Assembly (NCBI RefSeq): GCF_034119865.1
Contig: NZ_CP139421.1
Location: 2,852,001 to 2,916,000, forward strand
From: Algoriphagus sp. NG3
GTDB taxonomy: Bacteria > Bacteroidota > Bacteroidia > Cytophagales > Cyclobacteriaceae
Direction of reading: 5' to 3'
Length of the DNA: 64,000 nt
In this document: piece by piece, positions 45,394 to 61,798 of the stretch
Layout: every line of letters starts with the position of its first letter
Position numbering within the stretch: the stretch's first letter is position 1
Program-made: the position numbers and the translations under genes
Notes under the pieces: model-generated
Databases searched by the model: none
What the model saw: the letters and a program-made list of their open reading frames with translations, nothing else
Told to the model about the DNA's origin: nothing

Positions 45394-45425
45394 GAGGGAT
45401 AACTATTTGCTATCCCTCTTTTTTT
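45394..45425 (+). terminator. Intrinsic terminator of the RhuM-Fic gene
   Basis: GAGGGATA (45394-45401) pairs with TATCCCTC (45411-45418), followed by seven T. Its right arm overlaps the stop codon of the convergent coupling-protein gene. Confidence 0.85.
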
Positions 45426-47401
45426 ATCACCAAATGTTTCTGCCCCGGATCATTCAACAGCCTACTCATTTCAGCCTGAATGATATCCCGCACATCCTGC
45501 TTGATCTGTAGGTAGTTGCGCTGTACTATCGTGCTGTTTATCTTTCGGATTTCAGGGATAGGGACATAGTTTTCCTGCTCTCTTTTCAGGGCATTGTGGT
45601 CGTTGATAATCTCGGAATGAAAAGCTTTCAGAGTCATTTTACAATCCGGATTATCGGCCACCATTCCCACAAATTCACCTGATGAAAGAGAAGAAATGGT
45701 AGATGGTGGAACTGCTGATTCCAGTTGTTTGGACTTACTGATAGAAGTATCCCCACTGTTGATTGAAAGGCTCTGTCTATCTTGCATGATCTTCCCTATC
45801 CTGTCAGATAATTGTTTAGCAGAATCCCCGTTAACCTGTCCCGAAACAATGTTCCCTACTATGCCCATGATCACATCGGCAAGCTCCCTTCCATAGTCTT
45901 TTCTTAACTGGCTCAGATCCTGAATACCTATGGTCGTAGCAACTTTATTGCTCCGGGCAGTGGCAATCAGACTGTCCATGCCATTCAAATAGATTGTCGG
46001 AAACTCATCAAAAATCAGACTGCTTTTTAGCTTTCCTTTCTGGTTTACCAGCTTCACCAGACGGTTTACATACAATGAAAGTACGGCTCCATAGATCTGT
46101 ATTTTCTGGGGATTGTTTCCCATGCAGACCAGTTTTGGCTCCTCTGGATTGTTAATGTCCAGCGTAAAATCATTGCCGGAAAGCACATAATATAACTGTG
46201 CGGAGGACAGCCTTGCCATGGATATTTTCGCCGATGCAATCTGCCCTTCCAGCTGCTCCATTACATCATTTAGGTATGCATTTACAAAGGGATTGATCAG
46301 CACATCGATATCCTTTTCTGTGCGTAAAACCGTAAACAATTCATCGTAATCCGCCTGCATTAATTCAATGACATGGGGTAAAGTACAGAATTCCCCATCG
46401 TTGTATTTGCGAAGAAACCAGATGATAGCTGTCAGAAAATTGATCGGTGATTCCACAAAGAAGTCTCCCTGTTTTTTGATCCATTCCCTGTTCAAGCCCA
46501 TCAAAATAGTCCTTGCCGATTCTGCTGCATCAGTAATATCCAGCATGGTTTCTGGTGCCAGAGGATTACAGCGATGGCTCCTAGTGAGATCATCGAAATT
46601 GATCACATAGAACTCAGGGATAATTTTATAACGATGTTTATTCTGCAGCCAGGTATTGTAAACAATAGCGGATAAATCATCGAATTTGAAGTCGTACACA
46701 AACATAGAGAAGCCTTTTTTAATGTGCTGGGTGATCACATGACGGATCACAAAATAGCTCTTCCCCGACCCCGGTGTTCCCAAAACCATCACCCCGCGAA
46801 AAGGATTGATGATATTGATCCAGCTGTCTCGAATTTTACCTTTCAGACTATATTTAGCCGGGAGATTTACCGAAAACTCATTCTCAATCAGCCGTTCTTC
46901 CTGGGGAAAAGTCTCATTTTCTGAATTGAAAACATCAGCACTGAGACGATCATGAATAATTCTAGAGAGCTTGGTCCCGCCAGAAAGGATTAGCAAAAAA
47001 CCTATGGAGGTGACTGTCATGTAAGCCATCGAAATCCATTCAAACGGAGCTTTCCAATACAATATGAAGTAACTTCCAAAATAAAATATCAGTCCCAGAA
47101 GACCATAAACCGATGCTGTTTTGGTATTCATTTTTTCATTCTTCCTCCCCTTGATTCCCAAAAGAGAGATGGCCAGCAAGGCAATTGCAATAAGTTTGGA
47201 GGTGGAAAAATTCTCAAAGAGACCGGTATTAAAAACGTGCTCTAAAACCCCATTCGTCAGATCAGTAAACAACCCCCAAACCTGGAATGTGGTATAGCAA
47301 TAATAGTAAAAATGTAGTCCCAAAACCCCAATCCCCATTAGCCTGGTCATATCCAGAATCTTTCGTAACCCCTGTTCATTTTCGCCAGTCTGCATTCCCA
47401 T
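45410..47401 (-). CDS. TraG/VirD4-family coupling protein (MobC-like)
   Basis: 663 residues. Four N-terminal membrane segments (about 20-40, 65-82, 98-115, 122-140) precede a soluble ATPase domain with Walker A GTPGSGKS (208-215) and a Walker B-like LIFDEFPTIYL (about 460-470), then NKVATTIGIQDLSQLRKDYG. This is the layout of type IV coupling proteins, which bring the relaxase-DNA complex to the secretion channel; in Bacteroidota elements the gene follows the relaxase. Here the relaxase lies 18 bases upstream, so they form one operon. Confidence 0.93.
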   Translation of the reverse strand: MGMQTGENEQGLRKILDMTRLMGIGVLGLHFYYYCYTTFQVWGLFTDLTNGVLEHVFNTGLFENFSTSKLIAIALLAISLLGIKGRKNEKMNTKTASVYGLLGLIFYFGSYFILYWKAPFEWISMAYMTVTSIGFLLILSGGTKLSRIIHDRLSADVFNSENETFPQEERLIENEFSVNLPAKYSLKGKIRDSWINIINPFRGVMVLGTPGSGKSYFVIRHVITQHIKKGFSMFVYDFKFDDLSAIVYNTWLQNKHRYKIIPEFYVINFDDLTRSHRCNPLAPETMLDITDAAESARTILMGLNREWIKKQGDFFVESPINFLTAIIWFLRKYNDGEFCTLPHVIELMQADYDELFTVLRTEKDIDVLINPFVNAYLNDVMEQLEGQIASAKISMARLSSAQLYYVLSGNDFTLDINNPEEPKLVCMGNNPQKIQIYGAVLSLYVNRLVKLVNQKGKLKSSLIFDEFPTIYLNGMDSLIATARSNKVATTIGIQDLSQLRKDYGRELADVIMGIVGNIVSGQVNGDSAKQLSDRIGKIMQDRQSLSINSGDTSISKSKQLESAVPPSTISSLSSGEFVGMVADNPDCKMTLKAFHSEIINDHNALKREQENYVPIPEIRKINSTIVQRNYLQIKQDVRDIIQAEMSRLLNDPGQKHLVIKKEG

Positions 47402-47419
47402 ATACCCTAGTTTACGTCA

Positions 47420-48706
47420 CTAATTTTTCAGCTTCTTTCTCTTTTTTCTTTTCTTCTTCCGCAACTCAAATGGCACATGGCTATACGTTTCTTCCGGAGT
47501 GAGCACTGTCTCCAAAAGGCTTCGTGAAGACCTGCTTGGACTGTCACTTATTCTTTCGGTATCTGTAATAGTTGACGGGAGAACTCCCTCATTATCCCGT
47601 GGCATTCTTTGAGTTTTTGCCGGTAATGCTTGAGTGATTTTAGCTTCATTCTGATCGGATTCAAATCTTTCCATCAGTCCTTTGGCGCTATATTGTTTAC
47701 CCAATACACTTCCATTAAATACACATTTGGTTCGATGATCCACAAAGGTGACCCCATACAATCGCCCATCTTGATTCTCTCTTTTTACAGTGGTTATCCC
47801 CTGCTTTTCCAGGCTTTCTATTGCTTCATCTAAATGGCCTTTTGACATTTTCAACACAGTTATATCAATGGCTGAGCGTATTGAATTGATATGTTTCTTG
47901 CGCTCCACTTTATTGGATTCAAACTTGGATTCAATCCCATTCAGCGTTGCCCGAAAGTGAAAACTGCTGGCCTTTATTGGTACGCCAATCTTATTTCCTT
48001 CATCATCCAACACCCGGTAAAGCAGGCCCTTGTTTTTAAAAACCCGTGATTCTTCAGTCCCACGATCAGCTACTATTTTATAGCCCTTCAATACCGCATT
48101 TAGCTCAGGCAGGGAAGTGTAGCTGTAGTTTTTTAACACATGTTGCAACACATTTCCAATAGCCCGTTTTGTTTCTGATTTACCATATTCCAGTGTTGAA
48201 ATGGAAACTGGTTTGGCGATAAAAAGCCCCTGTTTCTGGGACTCGGCTGGCACCAAAACAAACTGTTTCTCGATTGCTTTCCGGGTTGGTTCAGACTTGA
48301 GTTTACCGATGTTATGCAATGGAATCCGCTTGCCGTCAAGCTCAATATTTGTCGTCACAATATGCAGATGTGGGTGGCCTGCATCCGTATGTTTATATAC
48401 AAGATAAGGCTGGTTTTCAAAGCCGATCCCTCGCATATATTCTCTGGAAATCTCCTGCAATTTTTTATTTTCAAAGTCCTCTCCGGGGGCAAAATTCAAT
48501 GAGATATGGACTGCATTAACCAAAGTCCTGGAGTTTAATTCAGACAGTTTCAATAAATATTTTAACCGCAATTCAGCAGTCTGATCCGCATTTTTGATAG
48601 GATAGTTTTGAGCCAAAAGCAATTCAGCCAATCCTTTTTCCACCTTTGTTTCATTATAGTGAAAAGGTCGTCTCAAAGATGCACTGGTCTTTATGATTGC
48701 AACCAT
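47420..48706 (-). CDS. Relaxase / mobilization nuclease
   Basis: 428 residues of the MobA/VirD2-type relaxase family (PF03432). The N-terminal VAIIKTSASLRRPFHYNETKV carries the Tyr candidate (Tyr17). The 3H metal site is H111, H113 and H115 in GHPHLHIVTTN, with DAG before it. The long C-terminal part is basic and ends in a Lys/Arg-rich tail. It nicks oriT and leads the transferred strand. It overlaps the MobC-like gene by 16 bases, so both proteins of the relaxosome are translationally coupled. Confidence 0.94.
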   Translation of the reverse strand: MVAIIKTSASLRRPFHYNETKVEKGLAELLLAQNYPIKNADQTAELRLKYLLKLSELNSRTLVNAVHISLNFAPGEDFENKKLQEISREYMRGIGFENQPYLVYKHTDAGHPHLHIVTTNIELDGKRIPLHNIGKLKSEPTRKAIEKQFVLVPAESQKQGLFIAKPVSISTLEYGKSETKRAIGNVLQHVLKNYSYTSLPELNAVLKGYKIVADRGTEESRVFKNKGLLYRVLDDEGNKIGVPIKASSFHFRATLNGIESKFESNKVERKKHINSIRSAIDITVLKMSKGHLDEAIESLEKQGITTVKRENQDGRLYGVTFVDHRTKCVFNGSVLGKQYSAKGLMERFESDQNEAKITQALPAKTQRMPRDNEGVLPSTITDTERISDSPSRSSRSLLETVLTPEETYSHVPFELRKKKRKKRKKLKN

Positions 48707-49077
48707 TTCTCCGCTGTTTGATCAATAAATTGGTTCACTTGCTTCAGTGATTCTTGGATACTTTGCTCCAATTTCACGACCTTAAAACGGTTGGTGTTTA
48801 ATTCATCATCTGTAGCCGTATTCATCTTTTTAGCCAACTGATTATAATTAGTCGCCAGGCCATGGAGATCTCGTTTCAGTGCTGTCAACTCCCTTAAAAG
48901 TTCCTGAATACCGGTATCCCGATACCTGCCAATCACCAATTTTTTGAGCAATATCCTTCTGGAATATTCACTCAGATTATCATGCACTGTTTCTTCAAAA
49001 TTTCCCTTTAGCTTCAGCAATTCCCGGTCAGTCAATCGGATATGCAACCATTTGTTCCTCTTGTTTTCTTCCTTCAT
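48691..49077 (-). CDS. MobC-like relaxosome accessory protein
   Basis: 128 residues. The N-terminal KWLHIRLTDRELLKLKGNF and SEYSRRILLKKLV fit the ribbon-helix-helix of plasmid mobilization accessory proteins (PF05713-like). A coiled-coil region (about 55-115) follows. It would bind oriT and help the relaxase. The 3' end overlaps the relaxase start by 16 bases. oriT is expected nearby, most likely in 49304-49397, but no clear structure was recognised. Confidence 0.85.
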   Translation of the reverse strand: MKEENKRNKWLHIRLTDRELLKLKGNFEETVHDNLSEYSRRILLKKLVIGRYRDTGIQELLRELTALKRDLHGLATNYNQLAKKMNTATDDELNTNRFKVVKLEQSIQESLKQVNQFIDQTAEKWLQS

Positions 49078-50126: not shown

Positions 50127-50495
50127 CTACTGGATGTGGGAGATCTTCTTTATGCCAAAGTCCTTTTCCGCCGGAACAAGGAAGTGGGCTGTAGGTTCTG
50201 ACTCAATTCTCTCAGTCTGTTTATCCCTGTCATTCTTCCCTTTACCAATATCCTTGACTAACAAATACCAAAAAATTAAAATCAACATCCCCAGGATTAT
50301 TATGGGAATGCTCAAAAGCATAATAAACCCTTCAAAAGTTGATATAATGACTGCTTTCCTATACCTGGAAAAATGCTGCAATCCACCGGGACCCCGTCGG
50401 TAAAATCTTCTGCGGTTCACCCACACCCGCAGCGCAAAGCCTCCTCCCAAAAGACAAATACCTACCGCTACAATAAATGCATCCTGCCAAAACAT
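50127..50495 (-). CDS. Small membrane protein of the mobile element
   Basis: 122 residues with two hydrophobic segments (about 5-25 and 50-80), separated by the basic NRRRFYRRGPGGLQHFSRY loop, and a polar C-terminal tail. The RRGPGGLQ-type loop is seen in small membrane proteins of Bacteroidota conjugative elements that are often mis-annotated as transporter permeases. It lies 11 bases after the stop of the first RteC gene, on the same strand, so it probably belongs to that operon. Confidence 0.65.
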   Translation of the reverse strand: MFWQDAFIVAVGICLLGGGFALRVWVNRRRFYRRGPGGLQHFSRYRKAVIISTFEGFIMLLSIPIIILGMLILIFWYLLVKDIGKGKNDRDKQTERIESEPTAHFLVPAEKDFGIKKISHIQ

Positions 50496-50506: not shown

Positions 50507-51343
50507 TTAATACCCCATATCCGTATCATCCATCCGCTTCACCAGACTTTCCTTCAGGCTGTCCAGGAAAATGGTCCTGTTCTTCTTTCTGCCCCGCATA
50601 CTCTGAAAGGTGCGGTAAAAGTTTCCTACCTGCACATTAAATAGGGATTCCATCAGTGTGATGATCGCCTTCACATCACTTTTCCCATGATTTACTGCTC
50701 CCCTGGAATGTAAGGCATAAGCCAACTCGATCAAGCTAGATTTTGAATCCGTCCATTCATGCACGGAAACCTCACTCCCTACAGCATCACTACCCATTTC
50801 CAGCCTATGGATAATTTTGCGGATATGATCGGTCAGACTTTCATAGGCCATAATCTTAGCCAGCTTGCTGCTGTTGACAGTGGAAAATGAAGGGTCAAAA
50901 TCAAAGGAATAGTCGCGGATCAGTGACACAGGCATGGAATTCCTCATAAACAGTTTCTCATCCTGATCACTTTTCCCCAGTTGGTAATAAATGTATAGCT
51001 GGTGATTCCTGACAAAGAACTCCTGGATCTGATCCAACACATGGGGGAAATAGCTTTTGATCTGCTCTTTTTTGCCAATTGGCTTTTTCGCCTCTATGTA
51101 AGTAAGCTCGGAATAGAAAATCAGTTCCTTAAAGAGCAGGGGCTTGTATTCCTTAAAAAACAGGATCTCCTCTTCCCCATCACGGAATGTATAGCCCGCC
51201 ATAAATTCCTTCAACCGGATCAATATCGCATTGATCACCTGACAACATCGCTCAGCTTTTTGTATCTCGTTTGAAGTATCCTTCGCCACCTCTTTCAGCG
51301 ATAACTCCATCTCCCCAAAAAGCGTTTCTACAAATGCTTTCAT
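50507..51343 (-). CDS. RteC-family regulator, copy 1
   Basis: 278 residues from the ATG at 51343; a GTG at 51370 is in frame but adds only nine residues. It matches the RteC family (PF09357): an N-terminal helical region with EEILFFKEYKPLLFKELIFYSE, a middle segment YIYYQLGKSDQDEKLF, and the conserved C-terminus NFYRTFQSMRGRKKNRTIFLD. RteC of CTnDOT activates the excision operon after tetracycline induction. Here no rteA/rteB two-component genes are seen. A second, divergent copy lies just upstream. Confidence 0.88.
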   Translation of the reverse strand: MKAFVETLFGEMELSLKEVAKDTSNEIQKAERCCQVINAILIRLKEFMAGYTFRDGEEEILFFKEYKPLLFKELIFYSELTYIEAKKPIGKKEQIKSYFPHVLDQIQEFFVRNHQLYIYYQLGKSDQDEKLFMRNSMPVSLIRDYSFDFDPSFSTVNSSKLAKIMAYESLTDHIRKIIHRLEMGSDAVGSEVSVHEWTDSKSSLIELAYALHSRGAVNHGKSDVKAIITLMESLFNVQVGNFYRTFQSMRGRKKNRTIFLDSLKESLVKRMDDTDMGY

Positions 51344-51429
51344 ATCCTCCTTGTTTATTACCAAAAACACTGACTGCCTCTCAACTCATTCAGCGTCATT
51401 TTTTATTCTAAATCATTTGCAATGATTTA

Positions 51430-52278
51430 TCATCCTTTTGATTCAAAACTGTCCATATAAGCCTCAAGACTTTCTATGCATCGGTCAAGAAATACTGTCC
51501 TGTTTTTCTTTCTGGACTTGATTTCCAGGAAAGTCCTGTAATACCCCTGCAGTTCTATGCCAAACACCTCTGACATGACGGTTGCCAATTCTACAACACT
51601 GGCATTTCCGTAATTAACAACATTGGATGCATTTAAAGCATAAACCAATTCCACCAGGTCTGCCTTATTTCCCGTCCAATTCAACGATGGCTTTTTATCC
51701 TCCCCAATCGAATCTTGAGCACCATTTAGAACCAACAATTGATCATGAATATAAGCAGCAAGCGAAAGAGTCCCCATGATCCTGGCAAAGTACAAAGTAT
51801 AGACAGTACAATATCTTGTATCCAGTGTATGCCAGAATAAATTAGGCTTATATATTGGAGCCTGCGCACTTCTTAAGAAAAACACCCGATCCTGATTCTC
51901 TTTTTTCATCAAGAGGTAATTGTACAGGTTCTGGTTATTTTGGAGAAATTCCTTTACGCTAAGCAACTCCCTTTCATAGAATTTTCTGATTTCATTTTTA
52001 GAACCGGCCGGTTTGATAGATTCCATATTGAACAGTTCGGAGAAATACACCGATTCCCTGAGAAAGTATGTCATTCGGGATTTGAAGAATTCTATTTCCT
52101 CTTCTTCAGACACAAATTCATACTGGTCCATAAAAAGCTTGATTTCGTCCATCGCCCTATCCACCAGATGAAAAGCAGATTCAAACTGGATGAGTTTGTT
52201 TTCACCGTCCAGTTTCAGAACACTCAGCTCATTTTTTAATCTGGTGATGATCCGGTCGGAAAATGTGAGGATACCCAT
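51430..52278 (-). CDS. RteC-family regulator, copy 2
   Basis: 282 residues with the same layout as copy 1: EEEIEFFKSRMTYFLRESVYFSE, YNYLLMKKENQDRVFF, SNVVNYGNASVVELA and the C-terminal YYRTFLEIKSRKKNRTVFLD. Identity to copy 1 is modest by eye, so this is an old tandem duplication. It starts 22 bases after the stop of the Crp-terpene synthase gene on the same strand. Having two RteC paralogues suggests that more than one signal or target is involved in control of the element. Confidence 0.88.
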   Translation of the reverse strand: MGILTFSDRIITRLKNELSVLKLDGENKLIQFESAFHLVDRAMDEIKLFMDQYEFVSEEEEIEFFKSRMTYFLRESVYFSELFNMESIKPAGSKNEIRKFYERELLSVKEFLQNNQNLYNYLLMKKENQDRVFFLRSAQAPIYKPNLFWHTLDTRYCTVYTLYFARIMGTLSLAAYIHDQLLVLNGAQDSIGEDKKPSLNWTGNKADLVELVYALNASNVVNYGNASVVELATVMSEVFGIELQGYYRTFLEIKSRKKNRTVFLDRCIESLEAYMDSFESKG

Positions 52279-52300: not shown

Positions 52301-53854
52301 TCAATTCTTTTTGTACCGGGGAGAAATCGACAGAGACCAATGGACAGACCCGGCAATTTTGTATTTAATCTGCTTGAGATATTTAAGGATGCCACTGTTT
52401 TCAGGCCTATATTCTTCCCTCCATTTTCTTTCCAGCACCATGAATTCTTCCAGAGTCTCCGCATGCAGATTAAGAACTTCCTGCTGAGCCACTGTGAAAT
52501 CAATCCGCTTATGATGCATAAGCAACGCCACCGCATTCATAAAATCACCCCGATCAGCTTCCTTTTGGTAAGATATCAAGTCATTGGACAGGTAGATCAA
52601 CTTGGCTGCCAACCCACGGAGATCGGCTGTTTTCCTCCAGTCTGAACAATCACTTGTAAATTTCTCACCCGATTCAAAAGCACAGAGTGCCAAGGCTAGA
52701 TTTCCCCCGGAAAAAGCTGGCCGGATAACCTGATATTCTTCCCAACTGGGCGGCATCCCCTTATCCTTATATTCAGCTTCAATTTTATTCTGTTGGAGAT
52801 AACTCAGAACCTCGGAAAATATCAGTCGCTTCAGTTCCTTATGGCCAGAAACCAGTGCATCGAATTCTGTGGCCAGATCTATAAAAGCATTTAGGAAAAC
52901 TGAGATACGGGCTGGATTCAATCCCAATGGTTTACCCCCCATGATGTTTTCAACCCCTGTCAGGAGGTAATCCCAAAAACCTGCCTTGTGCCCGACATGT
53001 AGATCATCTGTCATATCGTCAAGATAAAACAGCCATAGATATAGCTTGGAAATCCAAACCCCTCGTTCAAAATCAATTTCAGGATACAGGCAGGAGGACA
53101 GGTAGCTGAATTTCTGCTTTTTATAGTATGTTACTTCTTCGCCGTCCCTTAAAATTGAGTGGAAGTGAAAAGCCCAGGAGGCAGTTTTCTCCTCGATTTC
53201 AGCTGCATCAGTGTGGACATATGCAGGAAATGGATAGTGTAGCAATTTTCCCAGTTGCCCACTTTTATCCGAAGGTTTTCTTCCATTGTACTCTTTCTTA
53301 ATACGTGCTGCAGTAGTATAACTTACCCCCAGCAGACTTGCTTTTTCTTTGTTTGTCAGATCATACTTGAAATTGGGAAACTTATCTTCAATCACCCGGA
53401 GTTTATCCCGGTAGTTCATCTGGGTAAATGCATGCCATTCTACATCAGCATGCCGGACTTTTGCTATCTGGGATTTTGAAAAATCTGTGAACTCAGGTAT
53501 TTCCTTCAGCAACAGCGTCTCATTTGGGTAGGAAAGGCTTATATAAACAGATTCTCCCAAAGACCTAAAGCGATATTTACTGGGCATCTGTATCTGATAG
53601 GATTCAAAATCCATAAATACATCACCCGGAAAGTAAAGTCTGGATAAGTTCCCCATATAGTACATCCCGATCATTCCTTCCACCAGAAACCTAGATTCGG
53701 TTTCCACAGTACCGGCATGACGGATAGTAGCTTTCCGTTTAGCATTCCTTATTTCCAGAAATTCTCCTACTTTTTCAAAAGCACTATCACTTACTTTGCC
53801 TTCTAGGCCGAAAAGTTCCTTTAAAAACGTTGGGTTCAAATCATACCGCTTCAT
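52301..53854 (-). CDS. Crp/Fnr-type regulator fused to class I terpene synthase
   Basis: 517 residues in one uninterrupted frame. Residues about 1-190 are a complete Crp/Fnr-like protein: a beta-roll (RFLVEGMIGMYYMGN, SRLYFPGDVFMDF), a dimer helix (about 125-150) and a helix-turn-helix (LTNKEKASLLGVSYTTAARI, 166-185). Residues about 205-517 are a bacterial class I terpene synthase: aspartate-rich DDMTDD (279-284), NSE motif N424-D-L-I-S428-Y-Q-K-E432, the pyrophosphate-sensor Arg378 exactly 46 residues before N424, and a terminal RY (513-514). Such enzymes cyclise prenyl diphosphates. It is upstream of two rteC genes. Whether it is an enzyme, a sensor or both is open. Confidence 0.93.
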   Translation of the reverse strand: MKRYDLNPTFLKELFGLEGKVSDSAFEKVGEFLEIRNAKRKATIRHAGTVETESRFLVEGMIGMYYMGNLSRLYFPGDVFMDFESYQIQMPSKYRFRSLGESVYISLSYPNETLLLKEIPEFTDFSKSQIAKVRHADVEWHAFTQMNYRDKLRVIEDKFPNFKYDLTNKEKASLLGVSYTTAARIKKEYNGRKPSDKSGQLGKLLHYPFPAYVHTDAAEIEEKTASWAFHFHSILRDGEEVTYYKKQKFSYLSSCLYPEIDFERGVWISKLYLWLFYLDDMTDDLHVGHKAGFWDYLLTGVENIMGGKPLGLNPARISVFLNAFIDLATEFDALVSGHKELKRLIFSEVLSYLQQNKIEAEYKDKGMPPSWEEYQVIRPAFSGGNLALALCAFESGEKFTSDCSDWRKTADLRGLAAKLIYLSNDLISYQKEADRGDFMNAVALLMHHKRIDFTVAQQEVLNLHAETLEEFMVLERKWREEYRPENSGILKYLKQIKYKIAGSVHWSLSISPRYKKN

Positions 53855-54150
53855 GATGCTATCTCCGTTTAGATTACATTTTTCTTCCGATTACAAAACT
53901 CCTTGCCAGAGCCTAATTTTAAATTGCCTTTACAGTTAAAGATCTAACTGTTGAACTTGCTTAGTTCATTTGTTCACTAAAAAAACAGTAATCCAGTTTA
54001 AAATCTCAACTCCTAAAAACCAAGTAATCAACTACTTTATTTTCCCAATTCCCCTGAAATTGTATAATTGACACACTTTTTTTGTTTATCACCCAACTTG
54101 TGAAATCCGGATTTTTATAATCCCCAACTTTCCATTGAACATAACCCTGA
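53855..54150. other. Divergent control region between the Crp-terpene synthase and MauE-like genes
   Basis: 296 bases, A/T-rich. It contains a perfect palindrome at 53932-53951 and a shorter inverted repeat TGAAC-N7-GTTCA (53952-53968). No clear TAnnTTTG box was found for the minus-strand gene. Confidence 0.6.
53932..53951. promoter_or_regulatory. CRP-like palindrome upstream of the Crp-terpene synthase gene
   Basis: ACAGTTA (53932-53938) and TAACTGT (53945-53951) are perfect inverted arms with a 6-base spacer (AAGATC). The spacing is the same as in CRP sites (TGTGA-N6-TCACA). It lies 78-97 bases upstream of the start codon of a gene that itself encodes a Crp-type helix-turn-helix. Autoregulation is inferred. 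Confidence 0.6.
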
Positions 54151-54579
54151 ATGGAAAACACAAAAAAAATAGCTATCCCAAGTATCCTGTTAATCCTCTT
54201 GTGGACCTATACAGGATTTGACAAAATCATTCACTGGGAGTCAAGTCGGAAGGCGTTCCATAACCAGACCTTTCCTCCAGAGCTGGCAGAAGTATTGGCC
54301 TACGCAGTACCAATCACTGAGTTGCTGATTGCCCTGCTCCTGCTCTTTTCAATGACTAGATGGTGGGGATACCTCTCAAGTATCCTCCTCCTCACCGTCT
54401 TTACCACCTATGTGGGATTGATCTGGGTAGGAGCTTTTCCCCGAGTCCCGTGCAACTGTGCAGGGATTTTGGAAAGCATGGGATGGGAAGCACATTTCTG
54501 GATGAATCTGGGATTGATTGGAGTGGCGGTGTGGGGGTTACATCTCGGAGATAGAGAAAAGAGGTTAAAGGTTAACTAG
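54151..54579 (+). CDS. MauE/DoxX-like redox-associated membrane protein
   Basis: 142 residues with four transmembrane segments (about 8-24, 45-65, 72-95 and 115-132). A conserved PCNC motif in the loop before the last helix (FPRVPCNCAGILESMGW) marks the MauE-like branch of the DoxX family, thought to carry redox equivalents across the membrane. It precedes a DUF6520 peptide gene and a SusD/SusC/TlpA locus; this combination suggests a role with thioredoxin-like proteins in the periplasm. Confidence 0.85.
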   Translation: MENTKKIAIPSILLILLWTYTGFDKIIHWESSRKAFHNQTFPPELAEVLAYAVPITELLIALLLLFSMTRWWGYLSSILLLTVFTTYVGLIWVGAFPRVPCNCAGILESMGWEAHFWMNLGLIGVAVWGLHLGDREKRLKVN

Positions 54580-54998: not shown

Positions 54999-55280
54999 AT
55001 GAAGAAGCTCGAGGGCAAGTTGCCCCTAATCGCGTTTGTTGTAGCTGCCTTCGCGGCAGTTGCGTTTACCAGTCCCAAAGACTTAGATCCCGAATATGCC
55101 CAGGACCCTTTAAATCCGGCAATTTGGTATGATCTAAGTAATGAAACTCCTGGAGATGATACATACAGATGTAATCTTGAGGTCACAGATGTGTGTACAC
55201 GTACACTTCCTGATGATATGGCTCCTGCAAAGAAAAACGGGGAATTCATTATCAATGGTGAACTGGAGGAAGTGGAATAG
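54999..55280 (+). CDS. DUF6520-family secreted precursor
   Basis: 93 residues. The N-terminus (MKKLEGKLPLIAFVVAAFAA then VAF) is a signal peptide, leaving a mature peptide of about 68 acidic residues with one cysteine pair, Cys58 and Cys66 (YRCNLEVTDVC). These features fit DUF6520 proteins, which accompany SusC/SusD or TlpA genes in Bacteroidota; their role is unknown. The Cys pair is a possible disulfide substrate of the MauE and TlpA-like proteins next to it. A terminator follows directly. Confidence 0.8.
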   Translation: MKKLEGKLPLIAFVVAAFAAVAFTSPKDLDPEYAQDPLNPAIWYDLSNETPGDDTYRCNLEVTDVCTRTLPDDMAPAKKNGEFIINGELEEVE

Positions 55281-55345: not shown

Positions 55346-56716
55346 TTACCGTGGATTTTGAACCATAGGATTATACTGGATTTCCAAAGGTGGAATAGGT
55401 AAGGCATACTTCGGAGAATCCGGTGGCAACATTGCTATCTGCTCTCTTTCAGGATTATATTCACGGCTCAGTGTCACCGCCAAATCAGGATAAGAGTTGT
55501 AGCGTCTTAGATCCGACCACCTCACTCCTCTGCAAAACAGTTCCTTTCTACGCTCCTCAACTATTTTTTTCATCAATTCACTCTCCTTCATTTCTCCCAA
55601 AGGATTGAAACTGCCAGTTCTATACCTGTTTTCATTCAACCTGTTCAGCAACTCCACTGCCTCCCCTGTGTTTCCCAATCTCGCTGCAGCTTCAGCCATA
55701 TCCAACATCACCTCATCCACGGCCAGTCCTGAGAAATAATAAAAGTCCCCCGAGTAACTTCCGCGAACAGTAAACATTCCCTCCGTCCTCGAAGGCTTGA
55801 AAAAGTACTCCAATCTAAGATCAACACTGTCATAAAGGGTAAGCAGATCAGGGTTTACAAAGGTATTGGAATTGCTTTCTATCCTGCTGGTGGATATCTG
55901 CCGGTAAAAGATGACTTCAGGGTTAAACAATTCAAAAGAGTAGTTCAAAGAAGGATCCAAGGAATTATAATCCATCAGCGTATCATCGATCTCCAAGGCC
56001 TTCTGGGCATGAAGATATGTATTTTCGTAGTCCTTCATCGTCAGATATACCTTGCTCAACAATGCCTCACTTGCCCAGACGGAAGGCCTGACTGGCCTGT
56101 CTTCCTTCATCGAAAGGATCTCCAGTCCAGATTTTAAATCCTGGATGATTTGTTCATAGACTTCTCTTTGAGTCGATCTATCTTTTTTCACATTGATATC
56201 CGATGTCAACCTAACTGGAACACCTAGCTGATCCGGGTTTCCCTGATCATAAGGCTGGGAATATAATTCCAGCACCTCGAAATGCCCCATTGCCCGAAAG
56301 AATTTTGCCGATGCTTCCAACACCGCCATACGTTCTGCTTCCTCTGCTGAGGCGGGTGTGTAGTCTGCCAATCCATCCAGTACCACATTGGCATAAAAGA
56401 TCTTGGTGTAGGGAGCAGACCAACTTACATCTGAGGTACCGTCCATAAATACCTCATCTTCCCAGAAATAGGTAGCCCGTTGGGCCAAAGATACCTGCTG
56501 AAGAAGTGCATTTCCCAATACCAGGTCATCGGCACTCAATAAACACAAAGAGGGCGACCTGTACATTCCGCTGGGCTCCGCATCCAATAGCGCTTGAAAA
56601 TCATCCAGGGTTTGGGGAATTGCCAGATTAATGGATGGCTTTTCATCCAGAAAGCCATTGCAGCCCCAGAGGCAAACGAGGCAAATAAATCCGAGAAAGC
56701 TGTTTATATTTTTCAT
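55346..56716 (-). CDS. SusD/RagB-family surface lipoprotein
   Basis: 456 residues from the ATG at 56716, which opens a lipoprotein signal (MKNINSFLGFICLVCLWGC); a longer frame from 56776 has no signal and is rejected. SusD fold segments include FLDEKPS near the N-terminus, WASEALLSKVYLTMKDYENT, DEVMLDMAEAAARLGNTGEA and, near the end, IVEERRKELFCRGVRWSDLRRYN. It follows the SusC gene after 145 bases on the same strand and is its partner. Confidence 0.94.
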   Translation of the reverse strand: MKNINSFLGFICLVCLWGCNGFLDEKPSINLAIPQTLDDFQALLDAEPSGMYRSPSLCLLSADDLVLGNALLQQVSLAQRATYFWEDEVFMDGTSDVSWSAPYTKIFYANVVLDGLADYTPASAEEAERMAVLEASAKFFRAMGHFEVLELYSQPYDQGNPDQLGVPVRLTSDINVKKDRSTQREVYEQIIQDLKSGLEILSMKEDRPVRPSVWASEALLSKVYLTMKDYENTYLHAQKALEIDDTLMDYNSLDPSLNYSFELFNPEVIFYRQISTSRIESNSNTFVNPDLLTLYDSVDLRLEYFFKPSRTEGMFTVRGSYSGDFYYFSGLAVDEVMLDMAEAAARLGNTGEAVELLNRLNENRYRTGSFNPLGEMKESELMKKIVEERRKELFCRGVRWSDLRRYNSYPDLAVTLSREYNPEREQIAMLPPDSPKYALPIPPLEIQYNPMVQNPR

Positions 56717-56861
56717 AATTTTTATCGTTGGACAATCCATCCGGTGGCAGTAACCAGCTGCCGTCCCCTCCTCCACGTCAGTTACCTGACCCTTATGAAG
56801 AAAGCTATAAAATTCTGTAGAAGAGGTTTCTTTTACCGGATGGACTGTGGTTAGTAATAAA

Positions 56862-59800
56862 TTAAAGACCCATTCTCAATCCAATGGAAAATGAAGTCAA
56901 GGCTGGGTTGAAAATATAATCCGGATCTTCTATCCGATCACTGGCTTTCCAGAGTATCCCCAAATTATTGGCATAGCCATAGACTTCCAGGGATTTACCC
57001 GAAGTGGAAAATAGCTGTGGGAAACTATAGGCCAGCCTGACATCCTGAAGACGGATATGATCCCCCTTTTCTATTAAAGAAGAATTATTGAATTGGAACC
57101 GTGTTCGTAGATTGTTTACACTTTCAGGATCTGAAGGAATAGCTGTTGTTAATTCATCACCAGGATTTTGCCATCTCAATGCATAATCCGAATGACTGAT
57201 GTCCCCCCTGTTCAGGTCGTCATAGTTGACCGTAGGCCTGACAATGCTATACCTCAGACGATAACTGATGTTTAGCGAGAGCGACCATCCCTTATAGTTT
57301 AGCGTATTTCTTAATGCACCAAATACGGTAGGCCTTGAACTTCCATGATAAACCAGATCATCCGCATCTGCTTCATTGATGATTCTGGCATACTCCGTAC
57401 TCGGCTCACCGTCCACAAATCCCATGGGATCCCCTGTAGCCGGATCCAGGCCTGCCCAGGCATAGCTGAATACATGATAGAGTGGCTTGCCCAATACAGG
57501 CACAGGTACAACAGAACGGGAAGTCACGATCTGCACCGGGGTAGGCTGGGACTCAAAATCCACCACTTTCTCATTTACCGTGCTTAAGAAGAAATTGGTC
57601 AGCCAGACAAATTTACCCTGGGTATTCCTTGAATTCAGTACCAGATCCAATCCCCTTGTTTCAGTGGAAGCATAATTTCGAGTTGCTGACAATACCCCCG
57701 AGGAGGGAAACATGGCCTGTTCGCCCAACAGGTCAAGCCCTGCCTTGGTGTAATACTCAAATGACCCGTGAAGCCTGCCGCTAAAGAGATCAAACTCAGT
57801 CCCCACATTGATAATCTTTATCCGTTCCCAGCGTAGTTCTGCATTGGGTGGACTGATGATATTCAGGTAGGGATGGCCGATGAGGGTATTCGAACCTGCA
57901 CCAAAGTAATTAGCGGTGGTAAAAGCAGTGGCATTCGGATTGGTGTTACCATTGTAACCGAAGGAAGCTTTTAGCTTCATGTAATCCACCGCATCAACAT
58001 TCCAGAAATTCTCTTCCGAAAGTATCCATCCTGCTCCTGCGGACCAGAGCGGAACACCCCGCTGATTGGTATTCACCCCAAAAATATTCGAGGCATCTTT
58101 TCGGGCACTGCCCGTGATCAGGTACCTGTCCCGGAAAGAGTATCCCATATTCACAAATCCGGAAAGGTAGCGGTTGGTATTTCCGGAAAATAATTCAGCA
58201 AACGGAATAGAAGCCGGGAAGCCGATGGAATATCTGGTATAAAATTCATTATAGTTTACAGGAGCAGAGGTTCCGTTAGCAGGGTTATACCCATAAGCCC
58301 GGTTTGCACTTCCCGAGGAATTGAAATCCTTGGCTTCAAATCCTGCCAATACATTCAGTTCATGTCCCTGGCCTAACAGCTTATGGTAGGTCAGCTGGCT
58401 TCTGAAATTATGGCTTTGGGAGCGGGTTCTATCCTGATCTAATATACCTCCCATAGGCACCTGATACGTAAGCCCTCCCTGTTCATCCACCTGTGTGAAA
58501 TCATTGATCAGATCCCTCGCCAAGTAGGATTCCATCGGATTCAGTGTTTCTCCAAATCTGACATTGTTCCAGTATTGGTAATAGGCCATTGCTTTCAGCC
58601 CCGGAAGTATTTCATAATTTACCTGGGCATTCAGGCGCAGTTCATTGGTACGGATCAGGGTAGGACTCATTCCCAGCTCCTCCAGTGGGTAATATTCCCA
58701 ATCCAGCAATCCAGCCCCTTCAAGCCCCTGTTTGAACCGGTTATTGTAGCCTCTGTAAACAGGCAGTGGATTTCCCGCTTCATTAGCCAATACATCGTAG
58801 GGATAGAGGTTGGCAATGGAAGGGACTGCGCTTGAGCGATTGCCTATAATGGCATTTGCCCCCACGCTGACCTGCACCCTGTCCTTTGCCAGCTTCCAGT
58901 TCTGACGGGTGAGCAGGGTAAATCTTGAATCCGAGGCTGTCCGGCTGGACCCTCTGTTATCATCCCAGCCTGTACTGATCAGGTAATTGTGCTTTTTTGA
59001 TCCCCCGGAAACATTCACGGCATACTGCTGCTGAACAGCAGGTTGGTATATAAAACGTTCCAGTTCATTCCTCACATCCCTGGAACGGTAGGCATCCAGC
59101 GATTCGGAAAGTTCACTGTCCGAAATCATCCCTTCCCGGTGAGAAAGCAACGTCTCCACCACCGGGGAAAGCCGGGTCTTCCGGAAGGAATTTACCTGAC
59201 CGTCATAATAGCCACGGTCAAAAAGAACCCGCTCCTTGTCCACAAAATCAGAAATGGACATCTGGGGCTGATAGAAAGGATCAGGCTGCTCTATCACCGT
59301 GGTATTTGCTGTAAAGTCCACCCGGAGCGGAGATTCAAAGGAACCTTTTTTGGTAGTGATCACAATCACGCCATTTCCTGCCCTGGCTCCCCAGATGGAT
59401 GCAGCCGCAGCATCCTTTAGTACCGTTATGCTTTCCACGTCATTGGGATTGATTGCAGACAGTTCACCGTCATAGGCTAGATTGTCTATCACGATCAGCG
59501 GCTGGCTTTCTCCACGTATTGTGCTGACTCCCCGTATGGAGATGCTTTCTCCATAGCCCAGATCTGTTCTGTCTCTGTTGAAAATCAGACCGGGTGTCAC
59601 ATCTTCCAGTCTGTCCACCAGATTGGTGCTCACCCTTCTGGTTACCAGCTCTCTGTCCAAAAAGGCAAAGGAACCTGTGGAACGCTCTGCAGGAAGCTCT
59701 TCAAAACCGGTAGATAAAACCTCCACTCCTTCCAGCTCATATTCGTCCTCCAGCACGATCAGCAGTTCCTCCGACAGGGGTACTTCCACCTGGATTTCCT

Positions 59801-60080
59801 TGGTCACAAAACCTATGAAACTCACCGTCAGGGTAGTATTTCCAGCAGGAAGACTCAGCATAAATCCCCCTTGCCCATCAGTGGCAGTTCCTTGTGCCGT
59901 ACCCGATACGACTACATTGGCTCCGGGAAGGGCAAGGCTATCCGTGCGCTGCAGCACCTTCCCCCTGACTTCGTATCTGTTTGTTGGTTGTTGCGCCTGA
60001 ACGCAGGTAAACAGCACAAACAGTCCGATGCATGTTAGCACTACCGTTTTTAAATGAGGTAAATTGATTTTCAATTTCAT
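56862..60080 (-). CDS. SusC/RagA-family TonB-dependent outer membrane transporter
   Basis: 1072 residues. Signal peptide (1-29, ending CVQAQ), CarboxypepD_reg-like domain (about 36-115, EVRGKVLQRTDSLALPGAN), plug (VEVLSTGFEELPAERSTGSF, VLKDAAAASIWGARAGNGV, then IVITTKKGS) and a beta barrel that ends FSIGLRMGL. Its ATG overlaps the stop of the upstream TlpA-like gene by 4 bases, so they are coupled. The FEELPAERSTGSF type of plug, together with TlpA and DUF6520 neighbours, suggests a substrate with redox or peptide character, but that is inference. Confidence 0.95.
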   Translation of the reverse strand: MKLKINLPHLKTVVLTCIGLFVLFTCVQAQQPTNRYEVRGKVLQRTDSLALPGANVVVSGTAQGTATDGQGGFMLSLPAGNTTLTVSFIGFVTKEIQVEVPLSEELLIVLEDEYELEGVEVLSTGFEELPAERSTGSFAFLDRELVTRRVSTNLVDRLEDVTPGLIFNRDRTDLGYGESISIRGVSTIRGESQPLIVIDNLAYDGELSAINPNDVESITVLKDAAAASIWGARAGNGVIVITTKKGSFESPLRVDFTANTTVIEQPDPFYQPQMSISDFVDKERVLFDRGYYDGQVNSFRKTRLSPVVETLLSHREGMISDSELSESLDAYRSRDVRNELERFIYQPAVQQQYAVNVSGGSKKHNYLISTGWDDNRGSSRTASDSRFTLLTRQNWKLAKDRVQVSVGANAIIGNRSSAVPSIANLYPYDVLANEAGNPLPVYRGYNNRFKQGLEGAGLLDWEYYPLEELGMSPTLIRTNELRLNAQVNYEILPGLKAMAYYQYWNNVRFGETLNPMESYLARDLINDFTQVDEQGGLTYQVPMGGILDQDRTRSQSHNFRSQLTYHKLLGQGHELNVLAGFEAKDFNSSGSANRAYGYNPANGTSAPVNYNEFYTRYSIGFPASIPFAELFSGNTNRYLSGFVNMGYSFRDRYLITGSARKDASNIFGVNTNQRGVPLWSAGAGWILSEENFWNVDAVDYMKLKASFGYNGNTNPNATAFTTANYFGAGSNTLIGHPYLNIISPPNAELRWERIKIINVGTEFDLFSGRLHGSFEYYTKAGLDLLGEQAMFPSSGVLSATRNYASTETRGLDLVLNSRNTQGKFVWLTNFFLSTVNEKVVDFESQPTPVQIVTSRSVVPVPVLGKPLYHVFSYAWAGLDPATGDPMGFVDGEPSTEYARIINEADADDLVYHGSSRPTVFGALRNTLNYKGWSLSLNISYRLRYSIVRPTVNYDDLNRGDISHSDYALRWQNPGDELTTAIPSDPESVNNLRTRFQFNNSSLIEKGDHIRLQDVRLAYSFPQLFSTSGKSLEVYGYANNLGILWKASDRIEDPDYIFNPALTSFSIGLRMGL

Positions 60081-60517
60081 CTGGATGCGGTTTTAGGTGA
60101 AGGAAAAGAAACAGTGCCCAGCAGCTCTAAAAATTTCTCTTTCAGCTGTGGGTAATCAGAACCACCGATTTTAAAAGCCCTGATGGTTCCGTCGCTATCA
60201 AGCAAAAAGGCACGGGGAAAGCCAACTATCTCATAGGTATCTATCCAAGAGTCAAGGGCATCTTCGGTCATCCTGAGATTGGTCAGCTCCGGACTGGAAT
60301 AATCAGTCAGCGCAGACTGCCAAAGATCAGGATCGGAATCCGCAGATATGCCTACCAGCTGAAAACCCTCTTTATCCGCCAATTCCTGATAAAGCGGCCA
60401 CAGGTATCGTTTGAAATAATTGGCGCTGTGTGTGCACGTGGAGAAATAAAAGTAAAGCAGGGTCGGCTGATCCACCACATCGGCAAGCATCACCGTATCC
60501 CCAGCTAAGGTTTCCAA
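60077..60517 (-). CDS. TlpA-like thioredoxin domain, C-terminal part of a split gene
   Basis: 146 codons beginning with TTG directly after a TAA that ends the preceding frame. The two frames are in phase, so this is the C-terminal thioredoxin domain of a longer TlpA-like protein. Segments include TLLYFYFSTCTHSANYF, where the redox motif is reduced to CTHS with a single Cys; VGISADSDPDLW; VGFPRAFLLDSDGTI. If translated alone it lacks a signal peptide and would stay in the cytoplasm. The stop overlaps the SusC ATG by 4 bases. Confidence 0.75.
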   Translation of the reverse strand: METLAGDTVMLADVVDQPTLLYFYFSTCTHSANYFKRYLWPLYQELADKEGFQLVGISADSDPDLWQSALTDYSSPELTNLRMTEDALDSWIDTYEIVGFPRAFLLDSDGTIRAFKIGGSDYPQLKEKFLELLGTVSFPSPKTASR

Positions 60518-61798
60518 TTACAACGGAATCAACGGAGCACCGGGAACCATGGATTCCTTCAGCTGAACCAGCCGGTCTCTCCAGGGTTGCGATTTCATTT
60601 CAGACAGGTAGGGTTCCAGCACTTTGGCAGGATCTCCGTATCTTCTCAGATTCTGCGTAAGAAAACCCGCTCCAATCCGATCCCGAAGTTCCCCTGAAAA
60701 CTGTCGGTTCAGCACCTCATGAAACTGCTCTCCCTTGATCAATGCTTCTACCAACACCCGTTCAAGCTGAAGCTCCAAAAAGGCAGCTGAGATTAGGCGG
60801 GATTCATCGGAATAATCCTTGGACTGCAACGCTGCAAGGTATCCGCTCCATCTTTTCAGTTCTTCCCTCCTACCTTCTTCCCCCAGTATCGTCGTGAGTT
60901 TTCCATAATAGGACTTATGGAATACACTGAGAAGGCGATAATAATACCTACTGTAGATCTCCAACTCCAGCAATTCACGTTGCCCATCTGAGAGTCTGGA
61001 AGCATAAAACTGCAGGACATCCAATTGTCCTTGCAACTTCTTATCGCTCCCTTCCCATTGCTGATGCAATTGTTCCAGTCCAGCTCTTCCGAAATCCATA
61101 ATTTCCAGCTGGCTTCCGAATTGCTTTTGATAAGCCATCCATTCTTCCCTTCTTCCCTCTTCTTCCAGCATGGGATTATTGTCGGCCAGATACAGTCTGC
61201 GGGGCTGATCAAATTCTTCTGATGCCTGCTGTGATTTGAGAGCAGCCTGTGCCTGATAGAAAGAGGCTGCTGGCCCCCCGAAAACAACAGAAAACTCCAG
61301 TAAGTCAAGCTCAATTTTCAGGCTGTCATCTGGACTAAGCAAGTATTGGGAAAGTATTTTTCTGTTTCCCAGACTTAGATCCAAATACCCCGCACGGTCA
61401 AAATCAGGGATAGTCACCCTAAACTTTTCCTTTCGTGCGTCAAGTACACCGTCAAAGAAAGCTCCCGGTTCTATTTCGGGAGAATAAACCTGCTGTCTGA
61501 AAGTTGACTTTCTTCCCAGGTAATACGGTGTAAATGTGATCTGCAAGGGAGCCAAAGAATCTGGATTGATGATTTCCCCATAGATGAGAACTCCCAATTG
61601 GGCAGAAGAGTCTTCGCTCTCCGGCAAAGTATCGGAGCGGGTCTCCCCGCCCCGATGGGTGTCTCCTTGTTCAGGGGAGAGCTGGGGCTGCGACCTATGA
61701 AGAAAATCCGCCCCGGGTGAATCAGCAACTTGTGCCAACAGAGTGCTTATGGGAAGACATAGCAGTCCCACTAAGCAGATGAGTATGTTTTTTTTCAT
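60518..61798 (-). CDS. N-terminal part of split TlpA-like exported protein
   Basis: 426 residues. A signal peptide (MKKNILICLVGLLCLPISTL then LAQ) leads to a DUF4369-like beta domain (about 70-170) and a long helical region (about 180-420). The frame ends in PGAPLIPL then TAA, exactly where the thioredoxin domain would begin (LETLAGDTVML in the same phase after the stop). A full-length protein of 573 residues would have the order signal, DUF4369-like, helical, thioredoxin, which is standard for Bacteroidota TlpA-like proteins. One substitution (for example CAA to TAA) can explain the split. Confidence 0.75.
   Translation of the reverse strand: MKKNILICLVGLLCLPISTLLAQVADSPGADFLHRSQPQLSPEQGDTHRGGETRSDTLPESEDSSAQLGVLIYGEIINPDSLAPLQITFTPYYLGRKSTFRQQVYSPEIEPGAFFDGVLDARKEKFRVTIPDFDRAGYLDLSLGNRKILSQYLLSPDDSLKIELDLLEFSVVFGGPAASFYQAQAALKSQQASEEFDQPRRLYLADNNPMLEEEGRREEWMAYQKQFGSQLEIMDFGRAGLEQLHQQWEGSDKKLQGQLDVLQFYASRLSDGQRELLELEIYSRYYYRLLSVFHKSYYGKLTTILGEEGRREELKRWSGYLAALQSKDYSDESRLISAAFLELQLERVLVEALIKGEQFHEVLNRQFSGELRDRIGAGFLTQNLRRYGDPAKVLEPYLSEMKSQPWRDRLVQLKESMVPGAPLIPL

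Follow-up and report, generated by a model that had tools for sequence, protein, structure and literature searches.

A Crp/Fnr-type regulator fused to a class I terpene synthase stands in the MauE-divergent position of a SusC-SusD cassette in Algoriphagus

Why a terpene synthase should share one polypeptide with a transcriptional regulator is the question raised by a gene of Algoriphagus sp. NG3. The gene lies on the minus strand (52301..53854) of the window, meaning the whole stretch of 64,000 nucleotides analysed here (NZ_CP139421.1, positions 2,852,001 to 2,916,000), to which all coordinates refer. Its single open frame encodes 517 aa, with a Crp/Fnr-type regulator in residues 1 to about 190 and a class I terpene synthase in residues from about 200 to 517. 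The original prediction had described such a joint frame, and homologues of the same layout bear it out. Protein searching retrieved at least 17 of them, with lengths of 517-522 aa and identities of 38-89%; repeating the search from a more diverse alignment recovered this set again, and 17 is to be read as a lower bound because each search scored only 7998 candidates. Looking for the same domain order in other genomes, as the prediction had proposed, yielded 33 complete fused copies across 11 genera, window included. A join by assembly or frameshift was rejected since relatives carry the same fused frame; no support was found for an assembly or sequencing error, against which both the homologues and the complete copies stand, and its probability is close to nil. 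The fusion occurs at six loci in named Algoriphagus records, with A. ratkowskyi DSM 22686 and A. yeomjeoni DSM 23446 among the carriers. Of the homologues, two are filed under source names, "terpene synthase family protein" and "CRP-like cAMP-binding protein [Algoriphagus ratkowskyi]", and one more as "hypothetical protein". The fusion protein is thus already in databases, but labelled after one half or the other.

The Crp/Fnr-type part, delimited by profile A4 and the structure model, spans residues 1-195 (53270..53854, minus strand) and comprises a beta-roll, a long helix, a helix-turn-helix (HTH) and a linker. Separate profile checks of the two halves, suggested in the original prediction, gave a divided answer: the synthase half is recognised by Pfam, whereas the Crp half has no Pfam match in the single-sequence scan, cNMP_binding included, and is recognised through profile A4. 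That profile matched 3dn7 at 1.4e-14 and E. coli CAP at about 2e-6, over the beta-roll and the C-terminal HTH, which places this part by sequence homology in the Crp/Fnr superfamily. PF00027, the cyclic-nucleotide pocket, matches 5 of 13 related Crp parts, the window member not being among them; some members of the superfamily do not bind cNMP. Folded alone, the Crp half gave a poor model (pLDDT 52), unfit for structure search. The HTH occupies residues 166-187 (53294..53359, minus strand) according to residue conservation and the modelled helices 168-175 and 179-185. Positions T181 (T/S) and R184 (R/K) are retained in all 33 fused proteins and in 39 and 41, respectively, of 45 paired, unfused Crps, and a recognition-helix signature with a conserved Arg is therefore present in the predicted DNA-binding part. 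Bacteroidota Crp/Fnr-type regulators such as 3dn7 show the same order of beta-roll, long helix and HTH, to which the fusion protein adds the synthase at its C-terminal end. In the tree, the Crps of the cassettes group together (99/95) and are separated from four other Crps of the NG3 genome.

The synthase part (residues 200-517; 52304..53257, minus strand) is supported as a class I terpene synthase by both fold and profile matches. Among the matches listed by Foldseek and VIA for the whole-protein model (pTM 0.64) there are only synthases, and the Crp half remains uninformed by them. All signatures named in the original prediction are present in the window protein, each on the minus strand: the first metal motif DDMTDD (residues 279-284; 53003..53020), the expected pyrophosphate sensor Arg378 (52721..52723), the NSE triad in NDLISYQKE (residues 424-432; 52559..52585) and the RY pair (residues 513-514; 52313..52318). 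Across the 33 fused proteins, D279, N424 and R513 are invariant, E432 is found in 32, and D280, S428, Y514 and R378 in 30 each, with the whole triad in 30. The 42 unfused synthases of the family retain D279/D280 and RY in every case, the NSE triad in 39 and R378 in 31. The nearest solved relatives are sesquiterpene synthases (10-epi-cubebol, 1-epi-cubenol and T-muurolol synthases), at about 20-23% identity. Compared with these enzymes, the synthase here is fused behind a Crp part in a regulatory slot, and some of its relatives have lost the metal motifs.

Enzyme-type one-component regulators, the "trigger enzymes" such as PutA, NadR and BirA, likewise combine an enzyme fold with a DNA-binding domain in a single polypeptide. 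The fusion protein shares this arrangement as far as its sequence and model predict the DNA-binding domain; to our knowledge, no such regulator uses a terpene synthase. A terpene cyclase is also known as one domain of a larger bacterial protein, where the partner domain is of biosynthetic type and not a regulator. The nearest precedent is the 2-methylisoborneol (2-MIB) operon, beside which stand the Family 2B encapsulins with terpene-cyclase operons; in these systems a terpene cyclase gene adjoins a gene with a cyclic-nucleotide-binding-type domain, which in the encapsulins forms an insertion in the HK97-type shell, the cyclase being separate. The cnb genes of the 2-MIB operons are presumably such encapsulin shells. 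The cnb genes of cnb-mtf-mic operons are described as first taken for Crp-Fnr regulators (PMC3072421), the inserted cyclic-nucleotide-binding-type domain of Family 2B encapsulins as binding no cyclic nucleotide (PMC12407261), and terpene cyclases as a main partner of Family 2 encapsulins (PMC8346489). Unlike these systems, the present protein carries a Crp part with an HTH on the same chain as the synthase. Pfam scans of the frame and its scanned neighbours contained no HK97-type shell family, and Crp and synthase fill the 517 aa; with an HTH present and a shell part absent, the fusion protein is not a member of the Family 2B or MIB type. The original prediction knew of no characterised protein with this architecture, and no report of a Crp-terpene synthase fusion was found by title or abstract opening in an incompletely covered literature. 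One candidate paper has a separate cyclic-nucleotide-binding gene within a terpene cluster.

The genomic setting of the fusion is a cassette. Divergent from the fusion, with 296 nt between the two start codons, lies a gene for a MauE/DoxX-like membrane protein (54151..54579, plus strand; PF07291, E 3.9e-32), followed by a small DUF6520-like protein of 93 aa (54999..55280, plus strand; PF20130, E 7.7e-4, below the curated cut-off). Facing these two genes, on the minus strand, are a SusD-like protein (55346..56776; PF14322, E 1.8e-30), a SusC-like TonB-dependent receptor (56862..60080; PF13715, E 1.2e-17; Plug, PF07715, E 1.8e-13) and a TlpA/thioredoxin-like gene (60077..61798; PF13905, E 2.3e-10 on a 146-aa piece). 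A single in-frame stop breaks the TlpA gene of the window into pieces of 426 and 146 aa, and its counterparts in the sister cassettes L169-L171 form one frame of 601-614 aa. Behind the fusion, also on the minus strand, follow two RteC-family genes, at 22 nt (51430..52278; PF09357, E 2.1e-56) and, after a further 59 nt, at 50507..51370 (PF09357, E 2.6e-67). The likely operon ends with a 122-aa predicted membrane-type protein (50127..50495) that has no family above the cut-off and is found again behind RteC in relatives. MobC-, MobA/relaxase- and coupling-protein-like genes lie beyond (45410-49077); fused cassettes often adjoin mobilisation genes, which appear again in L025, L026, L100-L103 and L106.

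This arrangement recurs. As far as the contigs extend, the 44 further loci fetched from the genus and the window have TlpA-SusC-SusD running one way, the DUF6520-like and MauE genes the other, and then Crp and synthase divergent from MauE. In the ORF maps of the genus loci, MauE is divergent in 43 of 44, the exception (L120) having a MauE profile match at the expected place; SusC and SusD are present in 42 and DUF6520 in 34. The labels rest on profiles built from these same loci, with the window members verified against Pfam. Every one of the 45 PF19086 genes of the genus is either fused to this type of Crp (17) or located within 200 nt behind it (28). In other genera, 34 of 35 synthase matches were fetched, the omitted one being on a short contig, and 32 of the 34 loci are Crp-linked: 17 are fused (one of them broken), 12 have the Crp within 200 nt and 3 have it about 1.4 kb away, and the loci L167 and L168 have no Crp. 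MauE is divergent in 27 of these 34 loci, and SusC and SusD occur in 28. Behind the unfused pairs (L027, L031, L033 and others), genes for DUF6266 (about 214 aa), an unassigned 248-aa protein and DUF5675 (about 142 aa) recur.

The distribution is narrow. Within Algoriphagus, PF19086 occurs in 28 of 72 genomes with 45 matches, of which 17 are fused (window included) and 28 unfused; the family sample has it in 29 of its 245 genomes, which represent 15 of the 84 genera sampled. Fused genes belong to 11 genera of this one family, own genus counted, and the total of 33 complete copies excludes one broken gene (L149) and one cut by a contig end (L237). Sampling 395 genomes of the phylum and 390 of the order showed no fused gene outside the family. 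In the phylum sample, PF19086 appears in five genomes, three of them outside the genus, where the frames measure 336-408 aa and none is of fused size; in the order sample there is one match outside the family, of 318 aa. Four weak matches in plasmid records are synthase-only. The 318-aa synthase (L251; genome G722, another family of the order) stands alone, with a LytTR-like frame nearby and no Crp within 3.6 kb. Some members are decaying: the synthase of L115 is in two pieces, the fused gene of L149 has its Crp part broken off, and L216 combines a short Crp with a degenerate synthase.

An indication of function comes from what occupies the same place in sister cassettes. Seven MauE cassettes are present in the NG3 genome, an eighth match being a fragment. 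At the place divergent from MauE, three of them (L169-L171) hold a histidine kinase and a LytTR regulator, assigned by Pfam with the L170 kinase match below the cut-off; one (L033) holds a Crp alone, two (L022, L023) hold the Crp and the synthase as adjacent separate genes, and the window holds the fusion. Across the genus, 50 MauE cassettes not already known to hold a synthase were fetched, four of them from the NG3 genome and 46 others from the MauE match list; small fragments and one match at a contig start were omitted. A histidine kinase and LytTR regulator occupy 38 of them, Crp and synthase two (L216 and L237), and Crp only one; the remaining nine are contig ends or other cases. No synthase is found at any of the 38 kinase-bearing loci. 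The set used for a Fisher test has a synthase in 47 of 48 Crp slots and 0 of 38 kinase slots, a comparison that is descriptive only because 45 of the 47 were collected through the synthase search and the loci are related. Common descent of the loci means that none of the counts given here represent independent events. The cassettes are otherwise equal and the position is the same, but the proteins are unrelated, a two-component pair replacing the Crp and synthase. This setting is the new element here: all PF19086 synthases of the genus are tied to this Crp in a slot that mostly holds a kinase and LytTR in other cassettes. The kinase/LytTR genes of L169-L171, and of most loci among L205-L244, are followed by a gene of about 850-900 aa, which mostly points the opposite way; its counterpart at L033 has no Pfam match.

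Since Crp and synthase stand where a sensor and output pair otherwise stands, the simplest inference is that the Crp is the output and that the synthase either acts in place of the sensor or produces the signal. The Crp-only cassette L033 indicates that the Crp can do without a synthase. Its Crp falls within the cassette Crp clade, which suggests that a synthase was lost there.

Phylogenetic trees point to a single origin of the fusion. The 33 fused synthase parts lie on one side of a branch (100/99) that separates them from 49 unfused synthases, and the fused Crp parts likewise form one clade (98/99). Synthases from outside the cassette (L132-L134, L168) group among the unfused ones, so that the separate Crp/synthase pair likely came first and the fusion later; the synthase tree is unrooted and several of these rows sit on long branches. 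Distances between partner Crps and synthases correlate with r 0.92 for 33 fused proteins and 0.83 for 43 unfused pairs; permuted partners reached at most 0.19 and 0.21, respectively. In 25 of 28 unfused pairs of the genus, the Crp and synthase frames overlap, the overlaps being upper bounds because frames were counted from the first possible start codon. The likely ancestor of the fusion is a Crp gene and a synthase gene, mostly overlapping, as such pairs are still found in this slot of paralogous cassettes. In the other genera, most of the loci L135-L151 have the fusion immediately preceded by another Crp-like gene (about 190-240 aa), so that the order is Crp, Crp-synthase; eight of these extra Crps form their own clade and the others join the paired Crps.

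A second line of evidence is provided by synthases without their motifs. One fused clade of three genomes of one genus (L164-L166) has lost D280, S428 and Y514 together, and one unfused clade of three genomes (L129-L131) has lost the NSE triad. These synthases still score above the PF19086 cut-off where scanned; the Crp parts of L164-L166 retain T181 and R184, and the Crps of L129-L131 retain the HTH Arg. In the motif-less synthase parts, dN/dS is 0.10 for L165/L166 (dS 2.7), 0.10 for L129/L131 (dS 1.5) and 0.06 for L130/L131 (dS 3.0), values that are rough because dS is high. For comparison, four intact fused pairs give 0.13-0.18 (dS below 1) and a fifth 0.03 (dS 4.4), and four intact unfused pairs give 0.21-0.31; dS was saturated in four further pairs, two of them from the motif-less lineages, which leaves few usable pairs there. 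The motif-less synthases thus appear, roughly and from few pairs, to stay under purifying selection beside an HTH-bearing Crp. This combination suggests that the synthase fold has been kept at least twice for a role other than ionising a prenyl diphosphate.

A candidate target of the Crp part is the intergenic region between MauE and the fusion. It contains the inverted repeat ACAGTTA-N6-TAACTGT (53932..53951, no strand assigned), which may be an operator or form an RNA hairpin. Five-base half sites spaced by N6 are also typical of the E. coli Crp site. Relatives carry GCAGTTG...CAACTGC or ACAGTTG...CAACTGT, with both arms changed, and L109 has N5 between the same arms, which an RNA hairpin fits equally. 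Over 71 such regions, inverted repeats are mildly enriched, arms of at least 8 occurring in 13 of 71 against 8.9% in shuffles. The repeat is perfect once in the NG3 genome and has 16 copies with one or two mismatches, compared with 58 for a reversed control pattern; no regulon is therefore claimed, and no second copy was seen near SusC. In the MauE-Crp gap of L022, L023, L030, L113-L116 and L128, there are GC-rich inverted repeats with A- and T-runs (for example, CCGAC-ATAT-GTCGG and CCCTC-ATTT-GAGGG), at a distance of about 130-210 nt from the end of the Crp start region that was fetched and before it. Their stems change on both sides between loci, a pattern that fits a terminator, a leader hairpin or operators.

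Given that the synthase accompanies this Crp throughout the genus, holds the kinase/LytTR slot and is kept in two lineages even without its metal-binding motifs, it looks like a component of a regulatory module, and most likely it is the input domain of a one-component regulator. The fuller statement, in which this regulator controls the divergent MauE-DUF6520 genes and itself, is on balance probable. Mechanistically, the Crp part would bind the MauE/fusion intergenic region, and the synthase part would read the isoprenoid state of the cell by binding a prenyl diphosphate, which most members would probably also turn over. Farnesyl diphosphate would be the likeliest ligand, given that sesquiterpene synthases are the nearest relatives of solved structure. 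Occupancy, or the product, would then alter the Crp part and hence transcription; as transcription of SusC-SusD-TlpA starts at the far side, direct control may be limited to MauE-DUF6520 and the fusion's own operon. A more specific version is possible rather than probable: a synthase fold turned sensory domain, forming an isoprenoid-reading one-component system that would replace the kinase/LytTR pair before SusCD-MauE and respond to prenyl-diphosphate occupancy, with two lineages having given up catalysis. The original prediction had offered two readings, an enzyme whose ligand controls DNA binding and a synthase fold reused as a sensor. A regulatory role is favoured by the slot and the motif-less lineages. 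The window protein, with its complete active-site motifs, would fit either reading, and the complete motifs of most members also fit an ordinary biosynthetic enzyme.

That ordinary enzyme is the main competitor. A working sesquiterpene synthase with its own regulator would have its Crp part answer an ordinary Crp-type signal, its terpene served by the cassette through export, uptake or signalling, and the fusion would do no more than couple production and control. Most members have complete DDxxD, NSE and RY motifs, the nearest solved relatives are true sesquiterpene synthases, two PF00348 (polyprenyl-synthase) matches in the genome represent genes for prenyl-diphosphate supply, and terpene cyclase operons with an adjacent cyclic-nucleotide-binding-type gene are known (PMC3072421). 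Against it, the mapped loci and scanned window neighbours contain no recurring tailoring-type gene beside the synthase, the slot otherwise holds a sensor and a regulator, and two lineages retain the domain without metal motifs. We regard it as unlikely, although it carries more weight than the remaining alternatives. In a related scheme the enzyme would be the signal maker and not the sensor, and its terpene would bind the beta-roll in the Crp part of that very chain. Ligands of Crp-type beta-rolls include small molecules besides cAMP, the window Crp lacks a cNMP_binding match, and both halves are intact in most fused members. The lineages L164-L166 and L129-L131, however, could make no signal, yet their Crp and synthase stay together, and product feedback is accordingly improbable.

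The genes behind the fusion raise another possibility, namely that it is part of the adjacent mobile element, with its RteC and Mob genes, and would control excision or transfer instead of the SusCD-MauE cassette. The short gaps to two co-directional RteC genes, the Mob and coupling-protein genes that come next in the window and several relatives, and the presence of RteC in 15 of the other 16 fused loci of the genus are consistent with it, and RteC figures in the literature on the conjugative transposon CTnDOT. Beyond the genus, the fetched stretch lacks RteC at 12 of 17 fused loci, compared with SusC and SusD in 28 of the 34 loci. Kinase/LytTR cassettes may carry RteC too (L215, L242), and the unfused pairs are mostly without it. 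A mobile-element role is very improbable on this evidence, and the one-component regulator of the cassette remains the preferred reading.

Terpene synthases are known as enzymes. A synthase that is locked to a Crp, replaces a kinase and is partly devoid of its motifs would suggest that the fold can also serve as a signal-input module. With this system, the ways in which bacteria might sense farnesyl diphosphate or a terpene become open to testing, and biosensors for prenyl diphosphates or terpenes might be built on its natural scaffold. A further benefit is a handle on an unexplained cassette of the family, TlpA-SusC-SusD with DUF6520-MauE, which is present in seven copies under three kinds of control in a single genome.
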